A DNA stretch of 64,000 nucleotides from Magnolia sinica. Taxonomy: Eukaryota > Streptophyta > Magnoliopsida > Magnoliales > Magnoliaceae. The DNA is taken from NCBI RefSeq assembly GCF_029962835.1, contig NC_080582.1:77310177-77374176 (forward strand), written 5' to 3'. Position 1 is the first letter of the stretch; each line of letters opens with the position of its first letter. Below the pieces are notes generated by a model. That model was not told the origin of the DNA. It was given only the letters and a program-made list of their open reading frames with translations, and did not search any database. Shown here one piece after another: positions 7,823-64,000 of the stretch. The position numbers and the translations under genes are program-made.

Positions 7823-8376
7823 GGGCCTGTTTGGCAGGCAAATCCCATAGGATTGGGAGGAATGGGATGGATTTTAAGGTAATGATGGTGGTGTTAGTGG
7901 ATTGGTTTAAGATCCATGGGATTGTTATATCCCAGGACTAATTCACCGGGTCTGTCTAGCATGCCAGCATATCTCGAGATTTTACCTTCCAATCCGTCCA
8001 ATCAAAGAATGAGATCAATTTTAAAGTAATGATGGTGCTGCCACAAGCCAGTTATCCCTGTGGTAATTTTTCTGACATCTCTAACTTCAAATCCCAAAGG
8101 TCTAAATGATCGATAGGCCACGCTTTTACGGTTCGTATTCGTACTGGAAATCAGAATCAAACGAGCTTTTACCCTTTTGTTCCACACGAGATTTCTGTTT
8201 TCGTTGAGCTCATCTTAGGACACCTGCGTTATGATGTCAGTGAATTGTTTTCAAATATATGGGATTGCTTATATCCTGGGACCGTATACGGTTTTGTTTG
8301 GCTCGTCATGCATATCTCAGGATATCGCGATCCCATCCCTCCTAACATAGTGGGTTCGGTGTGGCTAAATAGGCCC
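7823..8376. mobile_element. MITE (PIF/Harbinger-like) carrying an rRNA fragment
   Basis: It starts GGGCCTGTTTGG and ends CTAAATAGGCCC, with TAA on both sides (7820-7822 and 8377-8379), a perfect 3-bp target duplication. Length is 554 bp. Two internal segments, around ATGATGGTGGTGTTAG and ATGATGGTGCTG, are related to each other. The second is interrupted by a 26S rRNA piece at 8037-8232. Confidence 0.75.
8037..8232 (-). rRNA. 26S rRNA gene fragment (partial, displaced)
   Basis: The minus strand reads through highly conserved large-subunit rRNA sequence near the peptidyl-transferase region (domain V). Visible marks include TAACGCAGGTGTCCTAAG at the start and ACAGGGATAACTGGCTTGTG at the end. 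About 196 bp is present. It carries several substitutions relative to the conserved rRNA, so it is a dead copy. It is not a functional rRNA gene: it lacks the rest of the subunit and sits inside a MITE. I recognise this from the well-known conservation of the region; no alignment was run. Confidence 0.9.
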
Positions 8377-18545: not shown

Positions 18546-18600
18546 CATATCGCCGTAAACCTTTGTCTTCTTCATCCGGAGTGCACTACCTCCCTATCTT

Positions 18601-21600
18601 CAAGCCTGAAGACTAATCAAAGCTGAATAGAGCTTCAACTTCTCCCGTGTGACCGCCTTAGTCAACATATTCGCAAGATTCTCACTTATATAAATCTTCT
18701 CTAGAGCAATCGATCCATCTTTCAGTAACGAACGTATGAAGTGATATCTGATGTCAATATGCTTGGTCCTTGAATGAAAGGCTGAATTCGTTGCCAAGTG
18801 TATTGTACTCTGACTGTCACTGTACAGCTTGCAATCTACTTGCTTCTTACTCAACTCTTCCATGAAACCTTGCATCCACACCATCTCCTTGCACGCTTTT
18901 GTGGTCGCAACATATTCTGCTTCTGTCGTACTGATAGATACTATCTTCTGTAACTAAAAGACCTAACTGACTGTGGCACTACCCAGAGTATAAACATAAC
19001 TTATAGAGCTTTTTCTGCTGTCAATATCTCCTGCCAAATCTGAATCCATGTAGCCTTGTAGCTTGATTTTCAATCCACCATAGCACAGCCCTACATCCTT
19101 AGTACTCACCAGATATCTAAGAATCTACTTCACAGCTTTCCAATGTTCCTTCCTGGGGTTGTTCATGAACCTGCTAACAACTTCCACTGCTTGAGCAATG
19201 CCCGGCCTCGTGTTCACCATAGCATACATGAGACTCCCAATAGCTGACGCATATGTGATTTTAGTCATGTAGTCCCGTTTCTCCTGCGTCTTTGCCCCTT
19301 GCTCTTTAGATAGCTTGAAGTGGTTGGCTAATAGAGTGCTAACCGGCTTAACACATCCCATATTGAATCGATCAAGTACCTTGGCTATGTACTCTGCCTA
19401 TGACAAAACTAGTATCTTGTTTTTCTTGTCACGCTTTATCCTCATGCCTAGGATTTATTTTGTAGCTCCTAAATCTTTCATGGCAAATTCTCTAGACAGT
19501 TGTCTTTTGAGATCTGAGATGTCCTTCATGCTTGAACCGGCCACAAGCATATCATCAACGTACAGAAGAAGGATGATATACGACATATCAAACTTCTTCA
19601 AGTAACAACAGTGGTCTGCATGACATCTCCTAAAATAGTTTCTCGATATGAAACTGTCGAACTTCTTGTACCACTGCCTCGGGGTCTGTTTCAGGCCATA
19701 TAGACTCTTCTTCAGTCTGCACACCTTGTTTTCCTTTCCTGGTGTCATGTACCCTGTCGGCTGATGCATATATATCTCTTCTTCAAAGTCCTCATGAAAA
19801 AAAGCTGTCTTAACATCTACCTGCTCTAGATGTAAGTCTTCTGTAGCCACTATACTCAAGACCATGCGAATCGTAGACATTTTCACCACAGGTGAAAATA
19901 TTTCAGTGAAATCGATACCTGCCTTTTATTAAAACCCTTTCACAACCAATCTAGCCTTGTACCATTTCGAACCATCATGCTCCTCCTTCAGTCTGTAAAC
20001 CCACTTGTTATGAAGAGCTTTCTTACCCTTGGGTAGAGTGACTAGCTCCCATGTACGATTGGACTCAAGAGAGTCCATCTCCTCATCCATGGCCTGCTCC
20101 CACTTAACCTGTGTATCTGACTGTAACGCCTCTTCAAAACATTCTGGTTCACCATTATCTGTCAGCAGTAGATAATGTAAGGAGGGTGAGTAACGGACCG
20201 TGGATCTCTTCTCCCGAGTAGACCTCCTTACAACTGGTGTATGTGGCTTTACCTCATAACGCTCCTATGCATAATCATCTTGTGGCGCTGTAATACCCAT
20301 GTCCTGTAACTCTTCCAAATCTATGAATTCTTTCTCCTCGACCTTATTTTCTTATACACTGTCCTTATACATCACTTTTTCATTGAAGACTACGTCCTTG
20401 CTTCTGATGATTTTTCTGTTTTTTGTATCTCGAAACCTGTAGCCAAAATCATGCTGCCCGTAGCCTATAAACGTGCACCTCCTGGACTTCGCATCCAGCT
20501 TGTTTCTATGCTCTGCATCAATGTGAACATATGAAGTGCAACCAAACACTCTGAGATGTGCAAGGTTCACTTCTTTCCCAGTCCACGTTTCTTCTGGTAG
20601 CCCACCATCCAATGGTGCTGAGGGACTTCTATTGATGAGATATGCAGAAGTATTCACAACATCTGCTCAAAAAGTTTTAGGCAACCCTGCATGTAACCTC
20701 ATGCCCCTAGCGCGCTCAAGGATGGTCCTGTTAATGCGCTCAGCCACACCATTCTGCTGTGGTGTCCTTGGAATCGTTTTTTGATGTTTGATTCCATTTG
20801 CTGTATAAAACTCCCCAAACCTCTTATCACAGTATTCTCCCCCATTATCAGATCTGAGATATTTTACTGTTTTACCTGTCTCGTTTTCTACTATAGCTTT
20901 CCACTTCTTAAATACATCAAATATATCAGATTTATGCTTTAAGAAATAGACCCACGGTTTTCTACTAACATTATCAATAAAAGAAACAAAATAACATGAG
21001 CCACCAAGAGATAATACCTGTGTCGGTCCCCACACATCAATGTGTACAAGGTCCAACAGATGCGTCTTTGGAGCGCGTCCCGTCTTCTTGAAACTTACCC
21101 TCTTTTGCTTTCCACACATGCAGTCTTCGCAGAATTCTAAGTCAATAGACTTCAGCCTTGGTAGCTTCCTTTTTGACAATAACACTTTCATCCCTTTCTC
21201 ACTCATATCTCCCAACCTATGATGCCATAACTGCTCATTCACTCCAGTTGATGTGACTGCGAGTGAACTATATGATCCTGAAGTCACGTACAAAGTACCT
21301 TCCTTTTTGCTTCGAGATATCACCAAGGCACCTTTTGTGATCTTCCAGGAATCACTGGTAAATGTCGTCACATAACCGGTATCGGCCAACTGCCCCACTG
21401 AGATCAGATTCCTTCTCAAACTCGGTACATGTTTGACATCCTTCAATTTCAACGCCGTTCAGTCTTTCTGATTTATATGAATGTCTCCCTTTCCAACAAT
21501 ACTGCACGACTCATCTTCATCCAGGTAGACTCTCCCAAAGTCACCTGACACATAATCACGCAGAACTTCTTTACATGAGATGGCATGAAACGAAGTACCC

Positions 21601-21712
21601 AAGTCTATAACCCAAGACTCATTCCTCGCATCAAGAGACAAGATCAACGCCTCTGTGTCACTCTCCTCAGATAGATTCACTGAATCCTTCCCTCCTTGAG
21701 AGCTTCCATCTT
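18601..21712 (-). pseudogene. Copia pol (protease, integrase, RT, RNase H), decayed
   Basis: Domains in order on the minus strand: protease with WVIDLGTSFH, where the usual D-S/T-G is D-L-G; integrase zinc region with WHHRLGD and CEDC, where the second histidine is replaced by aspartate; catalytic core with HIDVWGP, RSDNGGEY and VAERINRT, so D, D and E are all present; reverse transcriptase with VDVKTAFFHEDFEEEIYMH and YVDD; RNase H with YSDSQSTIHLA and RTKHIDIRYHFIR, ending near 18601. Stops occur near 21457 (TGA), 20658 (TGA), 20354 (TAA), just upstream of the RT motifs near 19927-19932 (two TAA) and in the RNase H region near 18953. Several are TGG-to-TGA changes, as expected from decay of methylated DNA. 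Confidence 0.9.
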
Positions 21713-22471
21713 GTTTCTTGAGCGCCCTGCAATCACATTTCATATGTCCATTCTTGCCTCAATGCCAACACCCGTCTTTATCTTTCGGTCTCTTGGACTT
21801 CTTCATCGACTTAGAACACCCGTGTTTATTGCCTCCTTTGTTCAGTGATCTTCCTCTTCCTTCAACGTTTAGAGTATTTCTTGAATCTCCTGAAACTCCT
21901 GATGCCTTTCTTCTAGATTCTTCGCTGAGAATTAGACCGGCTACATCATTAAATTTCAGCTTTGTCGACCTTGAAGAATTGCTCACAACAATCACCAAAC
22001 CATCCCAACTGTCTGACAAATTGGACAAGATCAATAACGCCCTGACCTCATCCTAAAAAACAATGCCAACGGATTCTAACTGGCTCGTGACTGTATTGAA
22101 CTCGTTTAGTGTTCAGACACGCTCCCACCATCTGACATCTTCATATTGAATAACTGTTTTATAAGATGAATCTTGTTGGATGCTGAGGGCTTTTCATACA
22201 TGGTGGCTAGGGCTTTCATTAATTCTTTTGTAGTTTTCACCTTCGATATATTGAAGGCGACGCTCTTAGACAAAGAGAGTCGGATCGTTCCTAAAACCTT
22301 CCTATCCAGTAAAAACCATTCATCTTTTGTCATCTTTTTTGGTTTCTTCTCTTTTCTTCCTAGAGGAATATAGAGGTCCTTCTGATACAGATAATCCTCC
22401 ATCTGCATCTTCCAGAAGGCAAAGTTTGAACCATCAAACTTCTCAATTCTAGTTTTTCCTTCTTCTGTCAT
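21713..22471 (-). pseudogene. Copia gag with zinc knuckle, decayed
   Basis: Starts at ATG 22471 (MTEEGKTRIEKFDGSNFAFW), a typical copia gag N-terminus, followed by the UBN2-type region (KMTKDEWFLLDRKVLGTI and LIKQLFNMKMSDGGSVSEH). A frameshift follows SVSEH near 22108, and an in-frame TAG lies near 22048. Near the C-terminus is a CCHC zinc knuckle (CWH, then GKNGH, then C) in which the second cysteine codon is TGA, at about 21757. The knuckle normally binds element RNA. The upstream open frame continues into the LTR but is not coding there. Confidence 0.85.
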
Positions 22472-22496
22472 CGCTCCCAATAGAACTAAACCAATA

Positions 22497-22508
22497 GCTC
22501 TGATGCCA
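22497..22508 (-). promoter_or_regulatory. Primer-binding site (initiator tRNA-Met type)
   Basis: The minus strand reads TGGCATCAGAGC two bases after the 5' LTR. The usual plant copia site complementary to the 3' end of initiator tRNA-Met is TGGTATCAGAGC, so there is one mismatch. This is where minus-strand cDNA synthesis would be primed. Confidence 0.85.
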
Positions 22509-22510
22509 GT

Positions 22511-23079
22511 TGTTGCACAGCACGCCAACAACACAGTGAGCCTAGATCCAAACTCAGGCCTCACCCACAAATGATAAACAAGAAAAAATATAAACTAGAA
22601 ACAAATCTAAGCAATCCAAACAAACCACATGACAAGATATATATGGAAAAAACCCCAAATTAGGATAAAAAATCACAGATGCAAATTTCCACAATGAAGA
22701 ACAAAGATTATAAGGCAATATAATAACCTCTCCCTTGAAAGAACATAGAAAATCCCTTGCCCACACCTTAGAAATATTTTTCAATATTCACCTTTTAACC
22801 CTAGAATAGCCCTAGGACCCCAATTTATAGTTTTGGCAACTTCCCTTTCGCACCCTTGTGAAAGGCGACACAAAAATCCGTAGTCCGCATCAGATTCGGA
22901 AACGAATTTGGGTAACCACGACCGGTCGAGCGGACCCCACGACCGGTCGTGCATGGCCCACGACCGGTCGAGCACCTCGGACTTAAAAAACTGATGCTCG
23001 CTGGAGTTCGAGTCGTGTCAGTCCACGACTGGTCACCACCGGTCGTGCGCGGCCCCAGATGTGGCTACACTTCTCAACA
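22511..23079 (-). repeat. Copia 5' LTR (569 bp)
   Basis: Ends TGTTGCACAG and CTCAACA. It carries fewer CGACCGGTCG-type units (about 22915-23050) than its partner. It is directly followed on the minus strand by a 2-bp spacer and the primer-binding site. Confidence 0.95.
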
Positions 23080-28300: not shown

Positions 28301-28400
28301 TTTCTCTCACAATAATGACAGAATCTTTAAAAGCTTCTTTACCAATGTACGGAAAACAGGGAAAAATGAATTTTTTTTTTTTTTTTTTTTATAAAATGTC

Positions 28401-28408
28401 TATAAAAC
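28401..28408 (+). promoter_or_regulatory. TATA box of repeat-peptide gene
   Basis: TATAAAAC lies 65 bp upstream of the first ATG at 28466, a normal distance for a plant core promoter with a short leader. It is just downstream of a T-rich tract (28370-28390). Confidence 0.55.
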
Positions 28409-28465: not shown

Positions 28466-29505
28466 ATGAAAGACTTTCCTCATCCCATGAAGACTAAGAA
28501 AACTCTTTCGGTCTTCACTATCGTCATCCTTTACCTTGCAATATCTTGCATAGTAACTGCAACTCAAGCAAGAAGAATTCCTGGTGGTAAGATCTCTACT
28601 TCCTTTTACTCATTTATTGATTTATTTATTTGTGCATGTGTGTGTGTATATGTACATGCATGTTTGCATAAGACTTTTGCACATGTACGCTTATGAAGAG
28701 ATTTATAACTTCCCCCATCTAAGAAAAATGTAATTACATGGGAAAATGACACGGGAAAGGACGCGAGGTCGACAACCGTCTTCCTTAGGAGGATAACAAT
28801 TCTGAATCCACGGAACTTCTCTACACTCCTCAAAGAGAAACCCGAATCCATGAGGAGAAAAATAGAAATAATTCTAAGAAATTCGAAATAATTTGATTAA
28901 TGATTAAAACGAGATTACACCCTTTTAAATAGGGATACTAAGCAATGAAAGAAGTTTCAGAATTAAACAATTGAAGTTCCTAGAATTCATGACTTACTAT
29001 TTATAGACCGTCGTGATTCCTACTAGTGCGCATGATTTTCGACCAAAAATAGTAAGTGCCATATTTGGTTGAACCATGATGTTCTCTTAATTATTCTAAG
29101 CACTTTTCATGTTGGGCGCAACTCCTAAAGCCCAACGGATGAAGAGTTATACTAAAACTAAAACTTATTCTAAATAGTAAAAATGAAATTAAAACATGAA
29201 TTCGACTGTTGATCTTATGGTATTTCGCAAATTCGGCGCAGGCAACCTGGTGTAAGGGTTGGGTGGTTAAACTAGCTCGTCCTAACCCAAAATCATATAT
29301 GGTACGTCCGATAACTCATTCTGGTTTGCGAGAGACATTTGTTTTAAGTTCTGATGGTTTGGATCATTTTTGTTGTCGACCAGACCTTTTCCGATCCATC
29401 TTGACCATGAAACCGTCTGTGACATGCTCTACATCAAAAATATGATTACTTCTCCTTACTTTTTTATTTTTTATTTTTTATTTTTAGGAATGTTACAAAA
29501 GCCTC

Positions 29506-29537
<32 letters not shown>

Positions 29538-32500
29538 TATTTTTACATAAGTTTCTAAAATCTACTTGAGTGTTAGATATTTGCTAAAACCTGCTTAACT
29601 TTGAAAATTAGTTATTCGAGGTTTGCTAAGCCTTCTCCCAAGTTGCATGGTTTGCTAAACCTGGTGCAAGGAATGACATCTGCATGCCACCTTATGTGCT
29701 AGAGGGGTGGGTGGACTGTGCCAAGTTGGGCCATGAAGATGTTCTCATTCAAAAATCAGCCTGCTCCGATCATTAGGTGGGACACGTTGTTAGAAACCAG
29801 TAAACAGCTTAAGAAAAAACTTCAGCCAATTGATCTTCAACCATACATTTGTTTCATGAATTGTGGCCTGCTTGATTAGGCATAGAAAACGATCTCAATA
29901 TCCAGAGACATATTTCCCTCACTTAGATTTTTTGGGAGGTTTTCAAATTTTCCAATACCCTTAGTAGTGGCTTAGTATTAGCCCTTCAGCTAATTTAGCT
30001 CTTCAACCATCACCAGAGAATGTTTGGAAATGTTTAATAAGCTGAAAAGCTAATTCCTGTGGATCGAATGTCTATTTTCTGAGCTGCCACGGTAAGTTGA
30101 TAAAGCAGCTTCATTCGGTGTTGAACTATGAATCACAAGTTAATATTTTTATTATTAGGAAAATTTAAAAATTGCCATCTTATTTAGTTTTGTTTTTCAA
30201 AAAGGTTTTCAGTAAGGTACCCTATTAATTTAAATTATCATCTCACCACTGTTTCATTAGATTTCTTAATGAAAGTTAGAGTTTGGCCATACAAGTAAGG
30301 GGTGGCAGCTTAGGTGGGCCCCACAATAATGTTTGTATGAAATCCACTCAGACCACCACATGTGTCACCCATGTTACCACAGGGCTAAACAATCAGCCCC
30401 ATCCACGATTCAGGTGGAGAACACAAATGGAAAGTCTACAGGGCAACACTCACCCTCCACATTGTTTCCCTTGGTGTAACCTACCTGGATCACAAATAAG
30501 ATTGATTTTCAGACCCTATGTCTAAATTTTGGTTTGAAATCTAATGATAGGGGTGGATTTCATATATTCGGCATGGTATGCCCTATAAAAATAAAGGGCG
30601 GATGTTTCTCTCCCAACTATTTCCTTTAGTGTAGCCTACCCAAATCATATGGCAGCCTAATTTTTGTCCCAAGACTATCTGGGATTACATGTGTACTTAT
30701 CAAAATGGATCTTGTATACACATCCATGTGGAGCCCATTAAAAATCAAGGATGGCCTGCCTAAGTTGTGTTTTCTTTTAAGAGAATGTGTCTAGTCCAAC
30801 CAGGTGGACCATGAGTTATGATCCACCTCGAGGATAACTTCCAACCTATTAATCGAACACATCTCACACTTCTAATAGGTTAGCCTTACAATAAGGATCG
30901 CCTATTGAAAAATCAGTCCCATCTAATCGTCCACTGGGCTAAATCATTGAGAATAATTTCTATCGCTGATGAATAGAAAAATACACGTAAAGGGCAATGA
31001 AGTAGTAGATGTGACTGATTTTTTGTATGAAGAAATCATCAAGGTGAATCCAACCTACTTAGATGGGTTTGATGTTGACAAATATGAAATGTTGGAAGGT
31101 ATCTTTTGAATATGGACCATAAATTATGGTTCAACTGGCTAGATGTGAGACCTCTTTTAGGAACAATTTGGAGATAGTTCACCTTTATTGATTTTTTAAG
31201 GGACCCACCTTACTGTATATGGGAAATCCACTCCAACCATTAGATTTGCAATCCCATCTTAGGTCCAGTACAAAAAAGAAAATAGAAAAAGACTAACCTG
31301 TGATTTCAAGTGGGTCAAACCAAAGCAAATAGCTGAGATTGAGACATACACCCTTGATTTTTACTGGGCCCACCATGATAATTATATAAAAAATACTTCA
31401 ACGATTAGATTCCAAACAAAAATTTAGGCCTTGGACTCAAAAATCAAACTTATCAATTATTCAAGTGGGCCACACAAAGGAAAACATTTTAGAGGTGTGC
31501 ATTGCCTTGTACATTGTTTCTAATTATGTGGTCCACTCGAATCATGAATGAGGCTGTTTTTTGAAATCTAAGCCTAACATGGGGTGATGTAAGTGATGCA
31601 AGTGATGGTAGTATGCTGATAATTATTTAAATTAATAGGGTACCTTACTGAAAGCATTTTTTTAAAAGGTAACAGGATGTGAATTCCAAACTAATGACAT
31701 GGTCATTTGTAAAATTTCCTGATTATTATGCTATACTTGTGGATGACATAATAATATACTTGTGTATATTACTTAGCTAGAATCTCATTTACCATCTTTT
31801 CGTCTCTTTTTTCTCATCTTCTTCCCAAATTGAGATTTTTGGGCGTTTTTAGGGTAAAGTTGTGGGTGTTTTGTATTCTTCGAGTGTTGTAATTGGTTGT
31901 TCTTTTGACCAGTCATCTTTGGTCATTGTTGTCCTTGTCGTCGTCACCACCACGACCTACTTCTTCTCAAATAAAAATTTTAAGAATTTCTTCCCTAATC
32001 TCGACTTTCCCACATGAATTTCTGTATCCATTGCATTGGGGTCTTCATCATCATCAACTGCTGCTACTTTATGTATTTTTCGTTTGGATTTCCTGGAATA
32101 AAATATCAACTCCTTACAAGAGATATCCAGTCAATCATTACAGAAGTTTAAAATCTTTATTTTTGTTGGCTCTTTATATTGAGAAACTTTCATTCGAAAC
32201 TTCTACCAGCAATGGGGTTCCAGTCCTTGCCCGAGTGGTGGACTCTGAGGAGTTTCAACATGAGGTCTTGGGTTCGAAACCCAATGGTGGTGAATTCCCA
32301 CTACTGCGTGCGTGGGTGTGTGTTAAAAAAAAAAAAAAAAAAAAAACCTTCTACCAGCATCTAATGGATAAAAATCTCAAAGCAAATCAAGTGGGTTTTC
32401 GACATTAAACTTAAAATCAAGCCGGGTATTGGCAATTTTTCTTTTCTTTTATTGCTTTTATTTTTGTTCCATCGATGGTTATGACAATGGAATTGCAGAT

Positions 32501-32932
32501 GCTATGGAAAAGGGGATTATGATCATAAGAAGCTACGTAGGCCGTCCATCTTATAAACCTCCACCACCGAAAGGACCAACACCGATCGTTCCCTCAAGAG
32601 ATTTGGATTCTCCAAAAGGACCAACACCAATCGTTCCCTCAAGAGCTTTGGATTCTCCAAAAGGACCAACACCAATCGTTCCTGCAAGAGCTTTGGATTC
32701 TCCAAAAGGACCAACACCAATCGTTCCTGCAAGAGCTTTGGATTCTCCAAAAGGACCAACACCAATCGTTCCTGCAAGAGCTTTGGATTCTCCAAAAGGA
32801 CCAACACCAATCGTTCCTGCAAGAGCTTTGGATTCTCCAAAAGGACCAACACCAATCGTTCCCGCAAGAGATTTGGATTATCCAGTATGGCCTGAGCCGC
32901 CAGCTTCTACTCAGCTTCTTCTTGAAGAGTAA
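28466..32932 (+). CDS. Predicted secreted tandem-repeat proline-rich protein (two exons)
   Basis: I do not recognise a named family. Exon 1 is 28466-28586 and exon 2 is 32499-32932. The donor G|GTAAGA and acceptor TTGCAG| join in phase 1 to give a GAT codon and a 184-residue protein. Residues 1-35 form a signal peptide: a basic start MKTKK (an alternative ATG is at 28487), then the hydrophobic stretch SVFTIVILYLAISCIV, then a likely cleavage near ATQA. The mature part starts RRIPG and has GRPSYKPPPP, followed by seven units of 15 residues with core KGPTPIVP and spacer SRALDSP/ARALDSP, then YPVWPEPP and an acidic end LLLEE. It has no cysteine outside the signal and no membrane anchor, so secretion to the apoplast is inferred. 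The layout resembles plant multi-peptide precursors such as hydroxyproline-rich systemins, or a small cell-wall protein; neither is shown. Three transposons lie in the intron. Confidence 0.7.
28747..29436 (-). repeat. LTR-like repeat X, copy 4 (in intron)
   Basis: The minus strand starts TGATGTAGAGCATGTCAC and ends CCCGTGTCA, 690 bp, aligned with the copies at 2455, 4493 and 10477. It sits inside the intron of the repeat-peptide gene, opposite to it in orientation. Confidence 0.65.
29437..30157. other. Intron sequence, no feature
   Basis: AT-rich intron DNA with an (ATT)n microsatellite at about 29509-29538. I see nothing else. Confidence 0.5.
30158..31719. mobile_element. Non-autonomous Mutator-like element in intron
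   Basis: A 1,562-bp element. The left end starts GGAAAATTTAAAAATTGCC and contains CAGTAAGGTACCCTATTAAT; the right end is the inverse (ATTAATAGGGTACCTTACTG, then AAATTTCC). The flanks are TTATTATTA and TGATTATTA, an 8/9 target duplication. The interior is made of GGGCCCAC-rich segments without any transposase. Confidence 0.75.
32212..32347 (+). mobile_element. tRNA-derived SINE with 12-bp TSD
   Basis: It has an RNA polymerase III A-box-like stretch (TTGCCCGAGTGGTGGACTC), a B-box (GGGTTCGAAACCC), and a poly(A) tail of about 23 bases. CTTCTACCAGCA is perfectly duplicated at 32200-32211 and 32348-32359. Length is 136 bp. A second copy is at 7704-8414. It inserted about 150 bp upstream of the exon 2 acceptor of the repeat-peptide gene. 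Confidence 0.9.
32566..32880 (+). repeat. Seven 45-bp coding repeats
   Basis: Seven in-frame units of 45 bp encode the KGPTPIVP repeats. Units 3 to 6 are identical at the nucleotide level by eye. Unit 1 and unit 7 differ by a few bases and carry SRDLD or ARDLD in place of ARALD. This is a recent in-frame expansion, with the older variants at the edges. Confidence 0.95.
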
Positions 32933-33044: not shown

Positions 33045-33164
33045 AATAAACTCTTTTAGGTTTGAGTGTTTAATAGCTATGTTAGTGAGTGTTTAATGAC
33101 TAAGACTGTACGCTACTTTCTAATAGTTATGTTTGTGAGTATTTAATGACTTTAATTAAATAAA
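33045..33164 (+). terminator. Poly(A) signals of repeat-peptide gene, duplicated
   Basis: AATAAA occurs at 33045-33050 and 33159-33164, each within GATTAAATAAA/AATTAAATAAA. The surrounding 3' region (33006-33165) is about three diverged tandem copies of a ~55-bp unit starting TTCTAATAGTTATG. This suits the end of the transcript that starts at 28.4 kb. Confidence 0.5.
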
Positions 33165-33924: not shown

Positions 33925-34245
33925 CCCTATGGTACGCCACACAACCCTTAACATATGACAACCAAGACCCTTAATATACGATAACCACGACCTTTAAAAC
34001 ATGACAAAATAAACCCTTAACACATGATAAACACGACTTAAACCCTTAACACATGACAACCACAACCTTGACCCTTAACACATGACAACCACAACCCTTA
34101 ACATACAACAGCCACAACCTTGACCCTTAACACATGACAACCACAACCTTTAACATATGACAACCATGACCCTTAACATATGACGAGCATTAAGTGCCCA
34201 TAATGACAACCTCGACCCTTAAAAGATAACCTTGACTCTTGACCT
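33925..34245 (-). repeat. Minisatellite array, CATGTGTTAAGGGT type
   Basis: About 13 imperfect units of 21-25 bp of the form CCCTTAACACATGACAACC (plus strand). The complementary form GGTTGTCATGTGTTAAGGG occurs at 43210-45245 and a variant at 54155-54440. Confidence 0.85.
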
Positions 34246-44180: not shown

Positions 44181-45245
44181 TTTTATGAAAAGTTTCACAA
44201 TAATATCATGATAAAAATAATTTTATTTTTTAATATCTCTCGATAAATTCCCACACTGAAAAGTTCCCGATTGGATGATTGATTGATTGGGAATGGTCAC
44301 ATGCATTTTTATTTTATTTTTTTGGATTTTGACCATACGAACCTTATAGTATTGACAAAAGCCCCAAAAGACTTACCTCTCAAATATATTATTTGGTCGG
44401 CCTTCTGATCACATTTTGGAGAATTAGTGGATGAAAATGCCCCTGCTGAATGTATTTTTCGGCGTATGTTCACCGCCATTAACTTCTCTAATGTATGGGC
44501 ACCACCAACAACTTCTAACACCCTTAAAAAGTTTTACTTTTGCTCCGACGACCACATGTCTTAGAGATAGAATAAGCTATTGATACATGGAAGACATTTT
44601 AAATTGATTTTTTTTATTTTATTTTTTGTATAATAACATTTTCTTAGAGATGGAAGCTACTTTTGGTTGTGGATAGAGATGGATGGTCATGATTGTTGTC
44701 GTGGGGAGAAGTGATTGTCGGAAAAGATTTGAGGTAGAGAAGGATGGTTGTGGTTGTCATGTGGAAGACAAAGGAGAGAGAATTTGAATTTTATAATATA
44801 TTACTTTAGTTGAAGTGGTTGTTGTGTGTTAAGGGTCTGAGTTGTCATGTGTTAAGAGTCTAGGTTGTCATGTGTTAAGGATTTAGGTTTGGTTTTTTAT
44901 GTGTTAAGAGTCTTGGTTGTCATGTGTTAAATGCCTAAGTTATCATGTGTTAAGGGTTTGGATCATGGTTGTCATGTATTAAGGGTCTAGGTTGTCATGT
45001 GTTAAGGGCTTGGGTTGTGGTTGTTATGTGTCGAAGGTCTAGGTTGTCATGTATTACGGTTCAAGGTTGTCATGTGTTAAGGGTCGAAGTTGACACACAA
45101 TAACCTAGGCCCTTAACACATAACAACCTCGACCCTTAACACATGACAACCTTGACTCCTAACAGCCTCAACTCTGATAACCTAGACCCTTAGCACATGA
45201 TATCATCAACTCTTAACATATGACAACCTTGACCTTGACCCTTAA
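43205..45245 (+). repeat. Minisatellite units, main array with strand switch
   Basis: Two isolated units lie at 43226-43260 and 43340-43360. A main array runs from 44815 to 45085 as GTTGTCATGTGTTAAGGGTC units, then flips near 45085 to the complementary form CCCTTAACACATGACAACC until about 45245. The array is thus a long imperfect palindrome. Confidence 0.85.
44149..44178. repeat. (TA)n microsatellite
   Basis: About 15 TA units, directly visible. Confidence 0.9.
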
Positions 45246-49259: not shown

Positions 49260-49960
49260 GCTCGGTCAACTTCACCGAAGTACCCATTGAATTTCATGTG
49301 AAGCTTGTTCAATTATGTATTAGGCTAGTTCAATTTCATTTCAAGTTCATTGAAATTCATGTTACCCTCACCGAATTTCATGTTAGCATCGCTGAATTTC
49401 ATGTTTCTCTCGCTCAATTTCTAGGTTGCCTTGCTCAAATTTCAGTTTGTCTCGCTCAAATTTCAGTTTGCCTCGCTCAATGTTAATTAAGTTTGCCCCG
49501 CTCAATTTTCAGTTTACCCCGCTCAATTTCTAAGTTTCCCCACTCAATTTCTAGTTTGCCCCGCTCAATTTCCAGTTTGCCCAACTCAATTTCTAGGTTG
49601 CCTTGCTCAAATTTCATTTTGCCCCGCTCAATTTCAAGTTTGCCCCGCTCAATTTCCAGTTTCCCCCACTCAATTTCCAGTTTGCCTCGCTCAATTTCAA
49701 GTTTGACCCACTCAATTTCCAGTTTGCCCTGCTCAATTTCATGTTTGACCTGCTCAATTTCCAGTTTGCCCCGCTCAATTTCCAGTTTGCCCAGCTCAAT
49801 TTCAAGTTTGCCCTGTTCAATTTCCTATTTGCCCGGCTCAATTTCTAGGTTGCCTCGCTCATTTTTTCAAAATTTCTCTTTCAATTTCTAGGTTGCCTCA
49901 CTCGATTTATAGGTCGCCTCACTCATTTTCTAGTTTGCCTTGCTCATTTTGATAGTTTGC
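49260..49960 (+). repeat. 21-bp tandem repeats in intron 1
   Basis: About 30 units of CTCAATTTCCAGTTTGCCCCG with substitutions, tight from 49490 to 49860 and diverged on the left side. Because 21 is a multiple of three, long open frames appear on both strands (for example SLPRSIS repeats); these are by-products. Confidence 0.95.
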
Positions 49961-50179
49961 CTTGCTCATTGATATTCAAGATAAACATCTCCATCCCATA
50001 TTATCTTCCGCTTAATTCCAAGTTTTTTTTTTTGCAAATCTCTCAAACTCTACTGTCACCGCACCAATAAATTCATTGACGAACATGTTCTCCCCAGGTC
50101 CATATAACATTATGTTTGTGATGGTGCCGTTAGGCAATAAAATTTGGAACTTGAACACTTCCTCTCCCGCTCATCTGAG

Positions 50180-50480
50180 GATTCTACTTTGCCCCGCTCA
50201 ATTTTAAGTTTGCCTCACTCAATTTCAAGTTTGCCCTGCTCAATTTCTAGTTTGTCCCGCTCAATTTCCTGTTTGCCCCGCTTAATTTTAAGTTTGCCCT
50301 GCTCAATTTCCTGTTTGCCCTATTTAATTTCTAGGTTGCTTCGCTTATTTTTCCAGTTTGCTTCACTCAATTTCTATGTTGGCCCGCTTAATTTATAGGT
50401 CGCCTCTCTCATTTTTTAGTTTGCCTTGCTCATTTTGATAGTTTGCTTCACTCGTTTTGATAGTTTGTCTTGCTCAATTT
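50180..50480 (+). repeat. 21-bp tandem repeats, second block
   Basis: About 14 units of the same CTCAATTTC/GTTTGCC repeat, separated from the first block by about 220 bp that lacks it. Both blocks are within the first intron of the ULP-like gene. Confidence 0.9.
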
Positions 50481-53400
50481 CTATCTCGATTTCATATGAA
50501 GCTTGTTCAAATTCATCTAATGCTATATTGTTTTTAATTATGTCTTATTTCGTACATTATGATTCACTAAGTATCTTGTGAGCTTTATGTTTGATATGTT
50601 TTCCAATTCATGTTTGCAGGTGACAAATCTTCTGCCGGAATCCCAAACCCAACCTCTAGGTGTATACTGAAATGGTGGTTTGACAAGGTCAAGGGTAGAG
50701 TGGAGAAGCATGATAGTCGGCTAAATTTGTTTACCTAATCCCCATTTTCTTTTTTATTGCATATTTCATCATTTATATTTATAGGGGCTTTATTTCACCT
50801 TCTTTTTCTAAGATATAAAAGTGATCTGGTATTTAAGATTAGGGGGAGACGATTGCAGTTCACGGAGATAGACTTCGCCCTTATTACAGGGCTTAAGACT
50901 GGAGAGCTTACAATACCGAAAAATCGTCCCACTACGAGTATATTAAGAGACAAATACTTCAAAGAATATCCAATTTTAAAGAAGCACTTAATGTATGTGT
51001 TTGAAAGATTAGTTGACACCTATAAGTATGAGGATGTCGTGAATGTTGCCCTACTTATGATTGTGGAGTGCTTTGTTAGGGGAACCAATCCGAAAACCAT
51101 GTGTAGCATGGATTATATTCACTTGGTCAACTCACTAGATGATTTATATAGCTATCCTTCGGGTAGTTTTGCCATACTATATAATGTCACAAGGAGTTGA
51201 AGTTGGCATTGTCGCATCAAGTGCTTCTCGTTACACTGTATATGGTTGCGTCCTTCCTCTACAAGTAAAAACACTTCTTATTTTCTACATGATTACAATT
51301 TATAGTCAATTGTGAATTTTTAACCTAGTGCAACATCATGACAAATATGGGCAGTATAGAGAGTACCGGCCCTAAAAGAGTGTTGTTTCGTATGTTCCTT
51401 ATTAAATTCCACGCGTCATTCAATATCGAGGCTGAAAGGGTTGGAGGTACAACAAAATACATGCTATTTTCGAGAGTAAAGCTGTAAGTATATATATTTC
51501 TCTGACATTTAATTTGTTTAATTTGACATATACACTTTTTTTTTTATTAACATTAGTCTTTCTTCTTTTACAGATATTGGTAGTAATGACCTTAGAACCC
51601 ATCCTGTGAGAATAGAAAACGGACGTCATTCGCTTGGTCCGTGATAGTTTCCAGGTGAGATGTTATGAAAATTGAACTATATTTTTACTGCTTTAATTCG
51701 ACCGGTCCGTAATTCCAATGCCATTATAAAAGTATCCCAACTCTTACATATCCACTGATACATTTTGTAGGTTATTGAAACCCAGGAAGATGAGGAGGAG
51801 AGTAATGAAAATGATTATGAGGAGGATGATGGAGTAGATGAAAATGATGAAAAAGATGTGGAGGGAGAGGGACTGAGGGGGGATATTATGAAGCATGTTC
51901 TTTTTATGGATGAATTCAGGGTTGAGAGGGAAGAGTTGAAGAAGGAGAGAGATGAATTGAAGGAGATGGAAGAATTGAGGAAATTAAGAGAAGGAAAGAA
52001 GAAAGGCTCGATGAGAAGGAGGCGTTGCTGAAAGAAAAAGAAGCATTGAAGATGGAGAGAGAGGAGTTGAATGAGAGAGCGCAATTGAAGAGGGAGAAGA
52101 AATTATTATTTTTAAGGAGAATGAAAAGTTAGCGAAGGAGAGAGAGGAGTTCATTAAGGAGAAGGAAGATTATTGTACATAGAGTGTGCATTTTATGAGG
52201 GAGGAGGGTGAGGAGTTGAAAAAGAGAGGGGAAGTAGATGATATTGAAGAGAAAGAACATGGACATGGGGAGTTGGAGGTGCAATCGTATAGTACTACTG
52301 AGGGTAATGATTGGATGAAGCACCCATTTCTCATCCCGTTTATCGAAGGAGAACTAAAAGGGTACTGAAGCTATTATATTATAAGGTTTCTCTGTACTTG
52401 TCCTTGTCTACATTTGATACAACCCCTGCTTTGGTTTCCAAACCTGAGCAAGCAACAACTTTTACTACTTCTCCGATACCATTTTCTGTACAAATGGATC
52501 CATTCAGGATGCCATCAACACAGGAATTGAAAGAACTATAGGACTGGTATGAAGTGAACAAAGATATGACAATGGGTTATAGGTTCAATACCATATGGGT
52601 AAAGGATGCGTGGGTTGATAGTGTGATAAACATTACTAATTCTGATGTTATATGCATTGATTTACATATATTTATTTCTTATATTAAATTATAGCTAAAT
52701 CATACTATCCTATGGATTAGGCTATCGATAAATATATTGATTTCCTTGAGAAAAGGCAATCTGACCTTTCAATATTATATCCTCAGGATTGCAAGTTTTG
52801 TCCCACATATTTTACAGTAATTGTTTAATTCAGACAATCTTTAATCTATTTTCATTTTTTATTTTCTTACTTGTATTGATCTTTGATCATGTTTGTAGCA
52901 GCAATGCCTTGAGGCAAGTTTGCCAATTTTGATCGCATACTGGGACTCTAAGTCAGCGTTGGAACGTGCCCCGCTAATAGACGAGATAAGCACAGCCTAC
53001 GTAGTTGCTAAGCAGCGGGATAAACCATACGCCAAGGCGATTTGGTGTTATAAACGGGTAATGCATTCGTCACAAAACATTAACTGTGGCTGTAATGTGT
53101 TCTCTCATGTTTTGACTAATATATTATTTTATGAATCATGGACAGGTGTATGCGCCCGTGAACCATGATAATTCGCATTGGTTCTTAATGGTCATTTATC
53201 TTAGAGAAAGAGAGATTGTTATCGTGGATAGTTTCCACACAAATGCATTATTAAAGTACAAGGAGAAGATCAAAGCGATGACCGAGGTGCTCCTCATTAT
53301 CTTCTATGCCACTGGAGACAACACTACGCTTAAAGGGAAGAAGTGGACCACCAAAGTTGATAAATCGGTACTGAAGCGGGACAATAGTTATGACTGCGAC

Positions 53401-53805
53401 ATATTCGTAATGAAATTCATCGACATATTGTGTAGCGGTCTCACCTTGACGGGAACAAACATGCAAAAATTCACCACCGTTTGGAGGAAGTTTTGTGAGA
53501 TGTTGTATTATATACATTGTTTGATACATCTTGTACCATTTTAACTGAATAAAATTTATAATCAATAAATATTTATAACCTGTAATTATTCCCCACTCAT
53601 GTTGTATTATCCATTTCCGAAGGGTCGTGGTTGTCATACCCCGTGTGTATGACAATCATGACCCATTGTTCGTCATATCTATGATCCTTCCCTTCAGAAT
53701 TAGCGCGACCCTTCAGAATCAGCACTACACTCTTTTTCAGGAAATCACATTAATGTCACTACTTTCCCATAATCACTTCGGAATCAACGCGACCCTTCGG
53801 ATTGT

Positions 53806-54154: not shown

Positions 54155-54440
54155 GTAGTGACTGTGTTATATGGGTTGTGATTTGCATGGGTTGTAGTTG
54201 TCATGTTATATGGGTCATGGTTGTTACATTATATGAATCGTGGTTGTTATGATATATGGGTCGTGGTTGTCATGTTATATGGGTTGTGGTTGTCATGTTA
54301 TATGGGTTGCGGTTATTGCATGTTCACCACGACCCGTATAACATGATAACTACAACCTATATAATTAACGTAATAACCACGACCCATATAACGTAACAAC
54401 CACAACTCATATAACATGACAACCACAACCATAATTACAA
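54155..54440 (+). repeat. Minisatellite array, GGGTCGTGGTTGTCATGTTATAT type, with strand switch
   Basis: Units of about 22 bp (GTTATATGGGTCGTGGTTGTC) run to about 54315 and then invert (ACCACGACCCGTATAACATG) to about 54435. The GGTCGTGGTTGTCATG core is shared with the arrays at 33.9-34.2 and 44.8-45.2 kb. Confidence 0.85.
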
Positions 54441-61238: not shown

Positions 61239-61700
61239 ATGCAACTTGATTGAAAAATGGTTGGGTAGACAGTAGTGTCACAAAAATCATATCGAGTTGC
61301 TTAGATTGAACTAGGGTAGACTCAAGAGGCTAGTGTTAGGGTTGGACCTAATCTAGACTCTCTTCCTCACTCTCACTCTCCTTGGTATGATGGATGCTTG
61401 ATTATGGATGGGTAAGGATGTTGTGGATTGGTATGAGTTGATTGTGAGATGCTTCTTGGATGGTTGAAATGTGAAGGGGATAGGGTATTTATAACCCTCT
61501 AGCCTAGTTTTTTGAAAAATTTTGCAAGGCTCGAGGGAGAGGTATTAGAGTAATTGTCGAGATTTTTCACATGCATGAAATATACAGGGAGGAGAACAAT
61601 GCATGAGTAGGCAACTAACTAAAGTACAGTCAGTGCCATGTGGTGAGTGGCACCCTAAGTGTCGTTCGTCCTTCCTTTTTTACTTGTGTGTGGTACACCA
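61239..61700. other. No gene; possible LTR piece
   Basis: The minus strand has GGGTTATAAATACCC near 61494, a TATA-like site as in LTR promoters. It could be a remnant of the gypsy element's LTR, but nothing else supports that. Confidence 0.3.
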
Positions 61701-61704
61701 GTCA

Positions 61705-62081
61705 ATGCACATTCTCCAACCAGTAGTAACTCTTGTTGGCACGAGTTCATTATTGGCATTGGCTACGATGGTGATCCCAGACTTCTTAGGAACCACCTGA
61801 GTTGGACTCACCCATTGACTATCGGATATGGGGTATATGATACCCACATCCAATAGTTTAAGAACCTCGGCCTTGACTACTTCCCTCATGTTTGGATTTA
61901 GTCTACGTTGTGATTGCCGAGTGGTCTTCGCATTATCCTCAAGATATATATGGTGAGTACAAATCGAGGGGTCGATTCCCTTGAGGTCCGCTATTGTCCA
62001 TCTAAGGGCTCCCTTATGCTCAATGAGAGTAGATATAAGCATACTCTCCTGTTCTTTCTCCAGGTGGGCAGAGATCACCAC
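61705..62081 (-). pseudogene. Gypsy reverse transcriptase, N-terminal part
   Basis: The frame reads KGIDPSICTHHIYLEDNA, QRRLNPNMREVVKAEVLKLL, GIIYPISDSQWVSPTQVVPK and GWRMCID, the start of the RT domain. It stops before the catalytic YxDD region because the element is cut at about 61700. Confidence 0.9.
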
Positions 62082-62091
62082 CGGTTATGTC

Positions 62092-62859
62092 TCATCTTGA
62101 CCTAAATAGACATTTTAAATTAGAGGGCAAGGGTTTTAGGTCAAGCTTCAGCGACTTGAGGTTAGACGGTAGAGGCACTACATCAATTTGAGGCAACTCT
62201 TCAAATTGTGGCCTCCACCGGTTAACTTCAAGTACCAGTGTAGTATCAAGCAAGGCACACGTCTCCCTACTCATGTCATCATCAAAATCATGGGAGTGGG
62301 CAAGACACGTCTCTATAGGGTCAGAGGATAAGGTCAGAGGTGTCGTATCTTCTACTAAAGAGTCAATCATGTTAATGTCGTGGAAATCGTCATCATCCTC
62401 TAAGTTTTTGCCATTATTGAAAAAGATGTTTGACTCTAATGTCATATTCTCAAAAAACATAGTCATGAAACCATTCCTGCAATTGATAATTGTGTTTGAA
62501 GTGGCAAGGAATGGGCGACCAAGAATGACGAAAATCTGAGTGCTCATGTTATTGATAGGTTCGGTGTCTAGGATGATAAAATCTATAGGGTAGTAAAATC
62601 TACCAACTTGGACCAACACATCCTCAATTATCCCTCTTGGTACACGAACATTGCGATCAGCAAGTTGTAGTGTGGTTAGGGTGGGTTTTAATTCACCCAA
62701 ACCTAACTGTTTGTATACCAAGTAGGGAATTAGATTGACGCTCACTCCTAAGTCAAGAAGTGCGTGATCAATTCGATGGTCCCCGATTACACATGATATG
62801 GTTGGGCTACCGGAATTTTTGAATTTCTGTGGCACGTCTTGCTTTAGGATGACATTCAC
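62092..62859 (-). pseudogene. Gypsy aspartic protease domain
   Basis: The 255-residue frame has the retropepsin motif ALLDLGVSVNLIPY (catalytic aspartate in D-L-G) near residue 36, followed by YKQLGLGELKPT and VILGRPFLATS, typical of plant gypsy proteases that cut the polyprotein. A frameshift and a TAA near 62090 separate it from reverse transcriptase. Confidence 0.85.
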
Positions 62860-63138
62860 TTTCTCGGTTAAAAAGATCTTCTTTTGAATACTTTACTGTT
62901 GTTTGGTCGTGCATAAGTTTTTTAGGAATTTGGCATATGAAGGTATCTGTTTTACGACATCAAGCAGAGGAATGTTGACTTTCACTTGTTTCAACACCTC
63001 TAAGATATCCTAAGAGTTAGAGAGAGGTTTTGTTGCAATCAACCGTTGGAAAAATGGAGTAACTGGCTTTTCTAGAAGTTCCGGTTCTAATTTTTGTGGG
63101 GCCTCACTAGATCCATCATTGTTGTCCTCTTCTAGTTC

Positions 63139-64000
63139 TTAAGGCTTTTCGGGCCTAACTGGAAGGGTTTTATCAATGATCTTCCCACTCCTAAGAGTGG
63201 TGATGAATTTAGCGTGCTCCATTTGATTTGAAGAGCTGGGATTACTTATCTCGTATTGTGGTTTAGGATTGGGGAGCAGTTGTGCAGGAAGCATCCCCTT
63301 TTCTATAACCGTCATACGTGAATCCATCTTTTGTATAAAATCTCGCATTGCCTGGGTCAACTCTTGCATGGAATTTTGAATCGGTTCTTCTTGAGGTTTC
63401 CCTTGATTTAGATTTTGATTGAAGAAACTTTGAGGGGTAGCATTGTCCATTTCTCCAACTAAAGTTTGGATGATTTTTCCAACCAGGATTGTACGTATTA
63501 GAGGTCGATCTATTGAAAGGTCTTTTATAATTATTTACTGCATTGGATTGTTCATTCAACACTTCTCGAAAGGTAGGACAATTTTTAGTTGTATGAATGT
63601 TGCAATCACAGATGCCGCAAACACTTTCCTTAGCCTTATCCTTATTTCCTTTCATGGCCTCAAATTTTCTTATGAGCGTAGTCACCTTATACTTGAGATT
63701 ATCTTCTTCTTTCAAGAGATACAATCCACCTTTCTCCTTAGATTGAGTCGGCCTAGACGTGGTATTCGATTTTGGGTAATAATCTCATGATTGTGTTTTT
63801 TCAGCAAGACTATCGAGGTAATCCCATACCTCGTTGACATTTTTATTAATGAATTCTCCATTACACATTGTCTCGACCATTTAGCGCATGGAAGATGTCA
63901 GTCCATTGTAGAAAAAATTTATGATGCGCCACGTTTCAAAGCCGTGTTGTGGGCATGAACTGACCAAATCCTTGAACCTTTCCCAACATTGGTAAAATGT
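63139..64000 (-). pseudogene. Gypsy gag, partial and frameshifted
   Basis: From the right edge the frame reads FYQCWERFKDLVSSCPQHGF, then WRIINFFYNGL, a retrotransposon gag domain. Stops lie near 63882 and 63787. A CCHC knuckle, CGICDCNIHTTKNC, is at about 63615-63575. A frameshift near 63455 moves the frame from GWKNHPNFSWRNG into a glutamine/asparagine-rich linker (SFFNQNLNQGK), which then runs to a stop at 63139. Gag forms the particle and binds RNA. Confidence 0.8.

Follow-up and report, generated by a model that had tools for sequence, protein, structure and literature searches.

What does a plant gene produce that joins a signal-peptide-like first exon to seven nearly identical proline-rich units, and are these units seven copies of one signal? 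The question is raised by a locus within a 64-kb stretch of the Magnolia sinica genome (the window). Positions given without a contig name refer to the window, while C10 coordinates refer to the contig carrying it. From the sequence we consider the locus very probably a real two-exon gene at 28487-32932. Our preferred reading, held with modest confidence, is that it encodes a precursor of small secreted, proline-modified peptide signals and belongs to a small, apparently undescribed Magnolia sinica family. The relatives of the gene, paralogues A to E, lie on the same contig. The gene is made up of the following elements:

28401 to 28406, plus strand: TATA box within GTCTATAAA, conserved in paralogue A; a further TATAAA at 28390
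28487 to 28586, plus strand: coding part of exon 1, with the predicted signal peptide MKTKKTLSVFTIVILYLAISCIVTATQA plus RRIPG
28587 to 32498, plus strand: phase-1 GT-AG intron of 3912 bp, starting with GTAAGATC and ending with TTGCAG
28765 to 29414, strand unassigned: dispersed repeat in the intron, 76% identical to an opposite-strand copy situated some 2.3 kb past paralogue B
30193 to 31667, strand unassigned: stretch in the intron with 50-bp inverted ends (88% complementary)
32499 to 32932, plus strand: exon 2 including the stop codon; the spliced frame has no internal stop
32510 to 32536, plus strand: family block KGIMIIRSY, with I-R-S-Y invariant in all six members compared
32570 to 32884, plus strand: seven 45-bp units KGPTPIVP(S/A)R(A/D)LD(S/Y)P, from tandem-repeat detection and translation
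32885 to 32932, plus strand: C-terminal tail VWPEPPASTQLLLEE and stop; PPASTQLLLE is shared with paralogue A
33045 to 33164, plus strand: two poly(A) signals AATAAA, at 33045 and 33159

The TATA box, the phase-matched intron and the two poly(A) signals had been named in an original prediction for this locus and were all recovered. That prediction had also begun the signal-peptide exon at ATG 28466. A hydrophobic core and a cleavage-like site were found in this exon. The start has to be shifted: ATG 28466 and ATG 28487 share one frame, and translation probably begins at 28487, because paralogue A aligns with ATC at the former site and keeps the latter ATG. At the donor side a GT after 28583, three bases earlier, would likewise keep the frame. 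To assess the exon we filtered both strands of the window for an ATG followed by a hydrophobic core, a cleavage-like site and GTAAG. The only matches were the two nested ATGs of exon 1, with thresholds that had been chosen after the exon had been seen and are thus biased towards it. This exon-1 signal is stronger evidence for the gene than the open frame through the array.

Spliced from 28487 the protein has 177 amino acids, consisting of MKTKKTLSVFTIVILYLAISCIVTATQA, RRIPGDAMEKGIMIIRSYVGRPSYKPPPP, the seven 15-residue units and VWPEPPASTQLLLEE. Its mature part contains 25% proline and no cysteine, in agreement with what had been predicted; proline, alanine, serine and threonine together account for 68 of 149 residues (46%). 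The mature part is probably disordered. The C-terminus reads QLLLEE, and by reading a hydrophobic end is absent. The intron stretch at 30193-31667 is probably a transposon insertion. This stretch and the dispersed repeat probably account in part for the length of the intron.

Paralogues and their conservation

To find relatives we carried out whole-genome protein searches with the window protein and paralogues A, B, C, D and E as queries, covering 1,838,573,281 bases in 127 contigs of Magnolia sinica. The searches were run per exon and only the best candidates were scored, such that remote members may escape. All clear relatives were found at one place, from C10 77,174,811 to 77,434,594, on the plus strand and within 260 kb:

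C10 77174811, plus strand: paralogue A, complete, exon 2 at 77176888
C10 77393739, plus strand: paralogue D, complete, exon 2 near 77394271
C10 77396319, plus strand: paralogue E, an orphan exon 2 (exon 77396301-77396510)
C10 77417019, plus strand: paralogue B, complete
C10 77433886, plus strand: paralogue C, complete

Identity to a shortened window protein was 68% for A, 45% for B and 38% for C. Some pairwise search links were weak when taken singly (E-D 0.12 to 0.26; C-D 0.055 to 0.26; B-C 0.037 to 0.089). They were accepted because location, strand, exon structure and the common block agree. In all five complete members, i.e. the window gene and paralogues A to D, a phase-1 GT-AG intron sits at the identical place, right after the signal-peptide exon, with lengths of 3912 bp (window), 1981 bp (A), 91 bp (B), 490 bp (C) and 431 bp (D). 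The frames of these five are intact and encode 73-177 amino acids (73-125 in the four paralogues, with 12-22% proline in the mature part). In each predicted signal peptide a 12-residue core with a mean hydropathy of 2.6 to 3.5 precedes a QA, which lies at residues 24-29. The window gene and A can be aligned in the promoter and exon 1, at the donor and the acceptor, in the 3'-terminal part of the intron and in the 3' untranslated region. Relatives that carry a signal peptide together with the repeat had been proposed as a check on the gene. Four complete paralogues with signal peptide and second exon were found in the same genome, and the repeat is absent from them. Instead, a single proline-rich stretch is present in A (PPKGPPPHTP), B (PRRNPPITP), D (PRRNPPITP) and E (PHHNPPTSP), which is degenerate in C.

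Profiles built from the members gave them 64-76 bits for exon 1 and 61-98 bits for exon 2, compared with 7.6 and 10.3 bits for the best other stretch. As the members are themselves the training set, these scores show separation and not discovery; they apply to the stretches read, outside of which most of 77.18-77.31 Mb lies. Apart from its own locus, the DNA of exon 2 and the 3' untranslated region had matches in paralogue A and in a 31-bp piece of contig C1 only, and is thus not a high-copy element. The orphan exon E has the right phase for joining exon 1 of D, and a profile scan of the D-E stretch found no exon 1 of its own. From this arrangement E may serve D as an alternative second exon, or it may be a relic.

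Outside the cluster 12 weak places (E-values 0.99 to 9.64) were obtained, of which nine were read by eye and all were profile-scored. The best exon-2 score, at C3:23333567, was 15.8 bits with an E-value of 0.00087, which lies above the HMMER inclusion line but concerns the proline stretch only and comes from a small set picked by similarity, such that the E-values are not independent. At C8:10811460 an RSYVGRP-like match of 10.9 bits to the exon-2 profile contains two stops, and the best exon-1 score among the 12 was 8.0. With at most 15.8 bits, versus at least 61 for members, these places were not taken as family members, a remote relative among them being conceivable.

The IRSY block was compared in six members (the window gene, A, B, C and D, all complete, and the orphan exon E). 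Ratios of nonsynonymous to synonymous substitution rates (dN/dS; Nei-Gojobori method, window array reduced to a single unit, pairs not independent of each other) ranged from 0.34 to 0.76 in nine of the ten pairs. Within the KExxVIRSY block, differences at codon positions 1, 2 and 3 numbered 41, 21 and 55, i.e. the third position was the most variable. Amino-acid identity was 0.57 in exon 1, 0.63 in the IRSY block and 0.39 in the proline-rich stretch. Together with the invariant I-R-S-Y these patterns point to a fast-evolving family with the clearest constraint on the IRSY block.

The seven-unit array

The array at 32570-32884 has a period of 45 bp with 97% matches and zero indels. Among the seven units two silent and three amino-acid-changing sites were seen, and by reading units 3 to 6 are identical. 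Seven 15-residue units with the core KGPTPIVP had been predicted and were found, whereas the spacer proposed with them, R-A/D-L-D-S-P, is one residue short. Three forward reading frames and one reverse frame pass through the array without a stop. The open frame is weak evidence for coding, because with a period of 45 bp any frame free of stops stays open. Tandem arrays are moreover common in the window (26 rows at a score of at least 100, counting overlapping rows and the KGPTPIVP array itself), so that the repeat by itself proves little.

Two further kinds of arrays were seen. Minisatellites with 21-bp units lie at 49390-50481. The first of them keeps frames of 113 and 134 amino acids open on opposite strands, which cautions that a repeat may hold a frame open where no gene is evident. 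Minisatellites whose units, ACCCTTAACACATGACAACC and its reverse complement, are related to one another are dispersed over three places, 33944-34184, 44817-45092 and 54187-54314.

In a genome search with the KGPTPIVP repeat seven candidates were scored, yielding three matches, all at the window locus. Since the repeat is confined to this locus and is absent from paralogues A, B, C, D and E, the array is most simply seen as a recent addition inside one gene. What it multiplies is the distal half of the core shared by the family, with IRSY lying upstream and outside the repeat. Should IRSY be required in the active peptide, the seven units do not represent seven copies of this peptide; should the proline-rich half suffice for activity, they do represent seven copies of the active part. 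On these grounds the units may perhaps not be whole copies of the family signal. The original prediction had the precursor cut into several like signals, which goes further than the evidence: with no repeat in any paralogue and the invariant IRSY upstream, seven identical signals are not established. It was right on the structure of the gene and probably right on its kind, but went too fast in taking the units for seven equal signals.

Proposed function and its alternatives

If the gene is a peptide precursor, exon 1 would provide a signal peptide for the endoplasmic reticulum, cut probably after QA. Exon 2 would provide a short proprotein with the core K-E-x-x-V-I-R-S-Y, often followed by R-P-S and then by a proline-rich part with PP-x-T-P. 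The prolines in SP, TP, AP and GP contexts would likely be hydroxylated and glycosylated. Subtilases could then release peptides of about 12-25 residues, which would act in the apoplast, presumably via receptor kinases. In the window gene a 45-bp unit was duplicated in tandem, which amplified the proline-rich half seven-fold; the precursor could then yield extra copies of this half, or its tail rich in hydroxyproline would be longer. The window protein contains seven R-x-L sites, as R-(A/D)-L-D once per unit, and the paralogues contain none. R-x-L-x is a loose form of the site-1-protease motif. Cutting between the units is only a guess that these sites suggest. For RALFs, an RRXL cleavage site is given in a passage of PMC11371470.

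A bolder version of the peptide reading appears doubtful to us. In it, the VIRSY block and the proline-rich end would define an undescribed family of secreted signalling peptides, so far observed in one tandem cluster of M. sinica. One member would have become a seven-copy dose amplifier, whose repeated KGPTPIVP peptides are released by cleavage at R-x-L-D, a site that the repeat brought with it.

To our knowledge few signalling peptides have been studied in magnoliids, and if the genes are expressed and processed they would represent a new peptide family in this group. The sisters with a single stretch and the gene with seven units would then form a clean comparison for the origin of multi-copy peptide precursors, allowing one to test whether extra copies alter the dose or merely lengthen the tail.

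Several observations weigh against a peptide precursor. The signal peptides were called from hydropathy and the -3,-1 rule alone. The window protein has no dibasic sites between its units, and the mature parts of C and D contain one cysteine each. For the closest pair, the window gene and A, dN/dS was 0.97, i.e. constraint is not visible. The excess of differences at third codon positions is slight in exon 1 (96, 71 and 102 at positions 1, 2 and 3) and in the proline-rich stretch (146, 112 and 164). The least conserved block is just the proline-rich part that the array multiplies.

Among known systems PROSCOOP/SCOOP is the closest analogue in layout, though not in sequence. Passages of PMC6382344 describe 14 PROSCOOP genes of Arabidopsis that form two tandem clusters, with transposon remnants in the larger one; the precursors have two or three exons, a signal peptide, 72-117 amino acids and no cysteine. 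According to parts of PMC9784617, exon 1 encodes the signal peptide and exon 2 the motif in most of them, while in PROSCOOP 6, 7, 10, 11 and 15 a further motif sits on a third exon. Hydroxyproline, in AP, TP and GP contexts, is reported there for two PROSCOOP10 peptides from apoplastic fluid. The Magnolia genes likewise form a tandem cluster and combine a motif exon with a signal-peptide-like exon 1 (two exons in all five complete members), and the mature part of the window gene is cysteine-free. Unlike the Magnolia family, SCOOPs are described as Brassicaceae-specific; perception by MIK2 is among their defining traits. The S-x-S motif is not conserved, occurring once each in B, C and D at different places (three of six members) and not in the window gene. 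The second motif of PROSCOOP10 is ascribed to exon duplication, whereas the copies in the window gene are a tandem repeat inside one exon. HypSys (hydroxyproline-rich systemin) precursors are described with a signal peptide, and a single precursor gives several peptides of 15-18 residues in the account excerpted from PMC11371470. They are described in Solanaceae and Convolvulaceae and give three peptides in tomato; the window gene has seven near-identical proline-rich units.

The six members were also compared with motif patterns of named families, including the RALF cleavage site RR-x-L. None of the six contains either part of the IDA/IDL pattern (PIPPS, KRHN), the CEP end P-x-S-P-G-x-G-H, the PIP/PIPL pattern S-G-P-x-x-G-x-G, the PSK pattern Y-[IV]-YTQ or RR-x-L. 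A likeness of PKG-PTPIVPS to IDA breaks down at the KRHN end, and membership was rejected. DY, the sulfation site of PSY, RGF and CIF, is present in one of six, namely in the seventh unit of the window gene, which does not place the family with these peptides. Pfam returned no family for the window protein at an E-value of 1, three sub-threshold matches for A (11.7-12.6 bits versus cut-offs of 22-27) and none for B, C and D at an E-value of 10. Among solved structures the repeat had no match at an E-value of 1, and paralogue B had one (E-value 0.99, 13 bits). Pattern searches gave 19 stretches in viral contigs and 28 in bacterial and archaeal genomes, none of them confirmed, as expected for a plant gene. 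KGPTPIVP strings were absent from the body text of the open-licence papers searched, and there VIRSY, MIIRSY, VIRSYA and further family strings gave unrelated matches only. In the titles and abstract openings covered no family was named with this motif, and passages of two reviews, PMC11756074 and PMC10741408, added nothing decisive. In the sources searched the family is thus matched to no named family, as the original prediction had held.

As an alternative, the gene may encode a small hydroxyproline-rich cell-wall or arabinogalactan-type glycoprotein, in which the repeats are glycosylation modules and stay uncut. Arabinogalactan proteins are recognized by a high content of proline, alanine, serine and threonine together with a glycosylphosphatidylinositol signal. 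The composition of the mature part, the SP, GP, TP and VP contexts in each unit, the signal-peptide-like start and the lack of dibasic sites between the units would all suit such a protein. However, the four complete paralogues are only 73-125 amino acids long, with 12-22% proline and at most one proline-rich stretch. In addition IRSY and not the prolines forms the most conserved block, and the QLLLEE end offers no hydrophobic C-terminus for the anchor. We regard this main rival as unlikely. An unexpressed relic or a pseudogene, its frame being open by chance, would agree with the dN/dS of 0.97 versus A, the intron enlarged by repeats and the uninformative frame within the array. It is decidedly improbable given the intact frame, splice sites, TATA box and 3' untranslated region, and the intact state of all five complete members. 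Least probable by far is a CLE gene with several CLE domains of the kind seen in rice CLE75/CLE76 and MtCLE14. Multi-domain CLE genes (rice CLE75/76, wheat CLE30/31, MtCLE14) share with the window gene several near-identical proline/glycine motifs, and every unit contains the P-x-G-P-x-P core (seven matches). In Table 2 of PMC2254619 the rice CLE76 motifs run on with ITSDPPP and lack His-Asn. MtCLE14, in the portion of PMC4526924 describing it, has tandem 12-residue domains with two leading and one trailing residue. Passages of both papers propose several peptides per precursor for multi-domain CLE genes. The units of the window gene, however, have neither R1 nor an H-N end, and the full pattern R-x-x-P-x-G-P-x-P-x-H-N (end loosened) occurs in none of the six members. 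Loose P-x-H-[NH] is found in E alone, twice, and only the window gene and A have the core (two of six). With the core not conserved in the family, CLE membership was rejected.

The peptide-precursor reading itself would also be compatible with an array that does nothing: the signal would be the IRSY...PP region, present once per precursor, and the array a neutral minisatellite expansion in a non-essential tail. We give this view of the array slightly less than an even chance; a functional array and a tolerated expansion are nearly equally likely, independently of which kind of gene this is. Units that are 97% alike with four identical ones in the middle are what recent slippage predicts, and the absence of the repeat from the paralogues, the position of IRSY outside it and the abundance of tandem arrays in the window point the same way. 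Against it stands the frame that remains open through the array to the tail shared with A, a weak argument in view of the 45-bp period.

Other features of the window

The single Rfam family detected in the window lies away from the gene, and a scan of the window for tRNAs found none. A fragment of a large-subunit ribosomal RNA gene lies at 8079-8255 on the minus strand (146 bits). Frames at 18600-22594 and 61680-63784, both on the minus strand, resemble by eye pieces of Ty1-copia and gypsy-type retrotransposons. Some plant transposons carry an Ulp1-type peptidase, and a frame at 53116-53544 on the plus strand resembles by eye a piece of such a peptidase.

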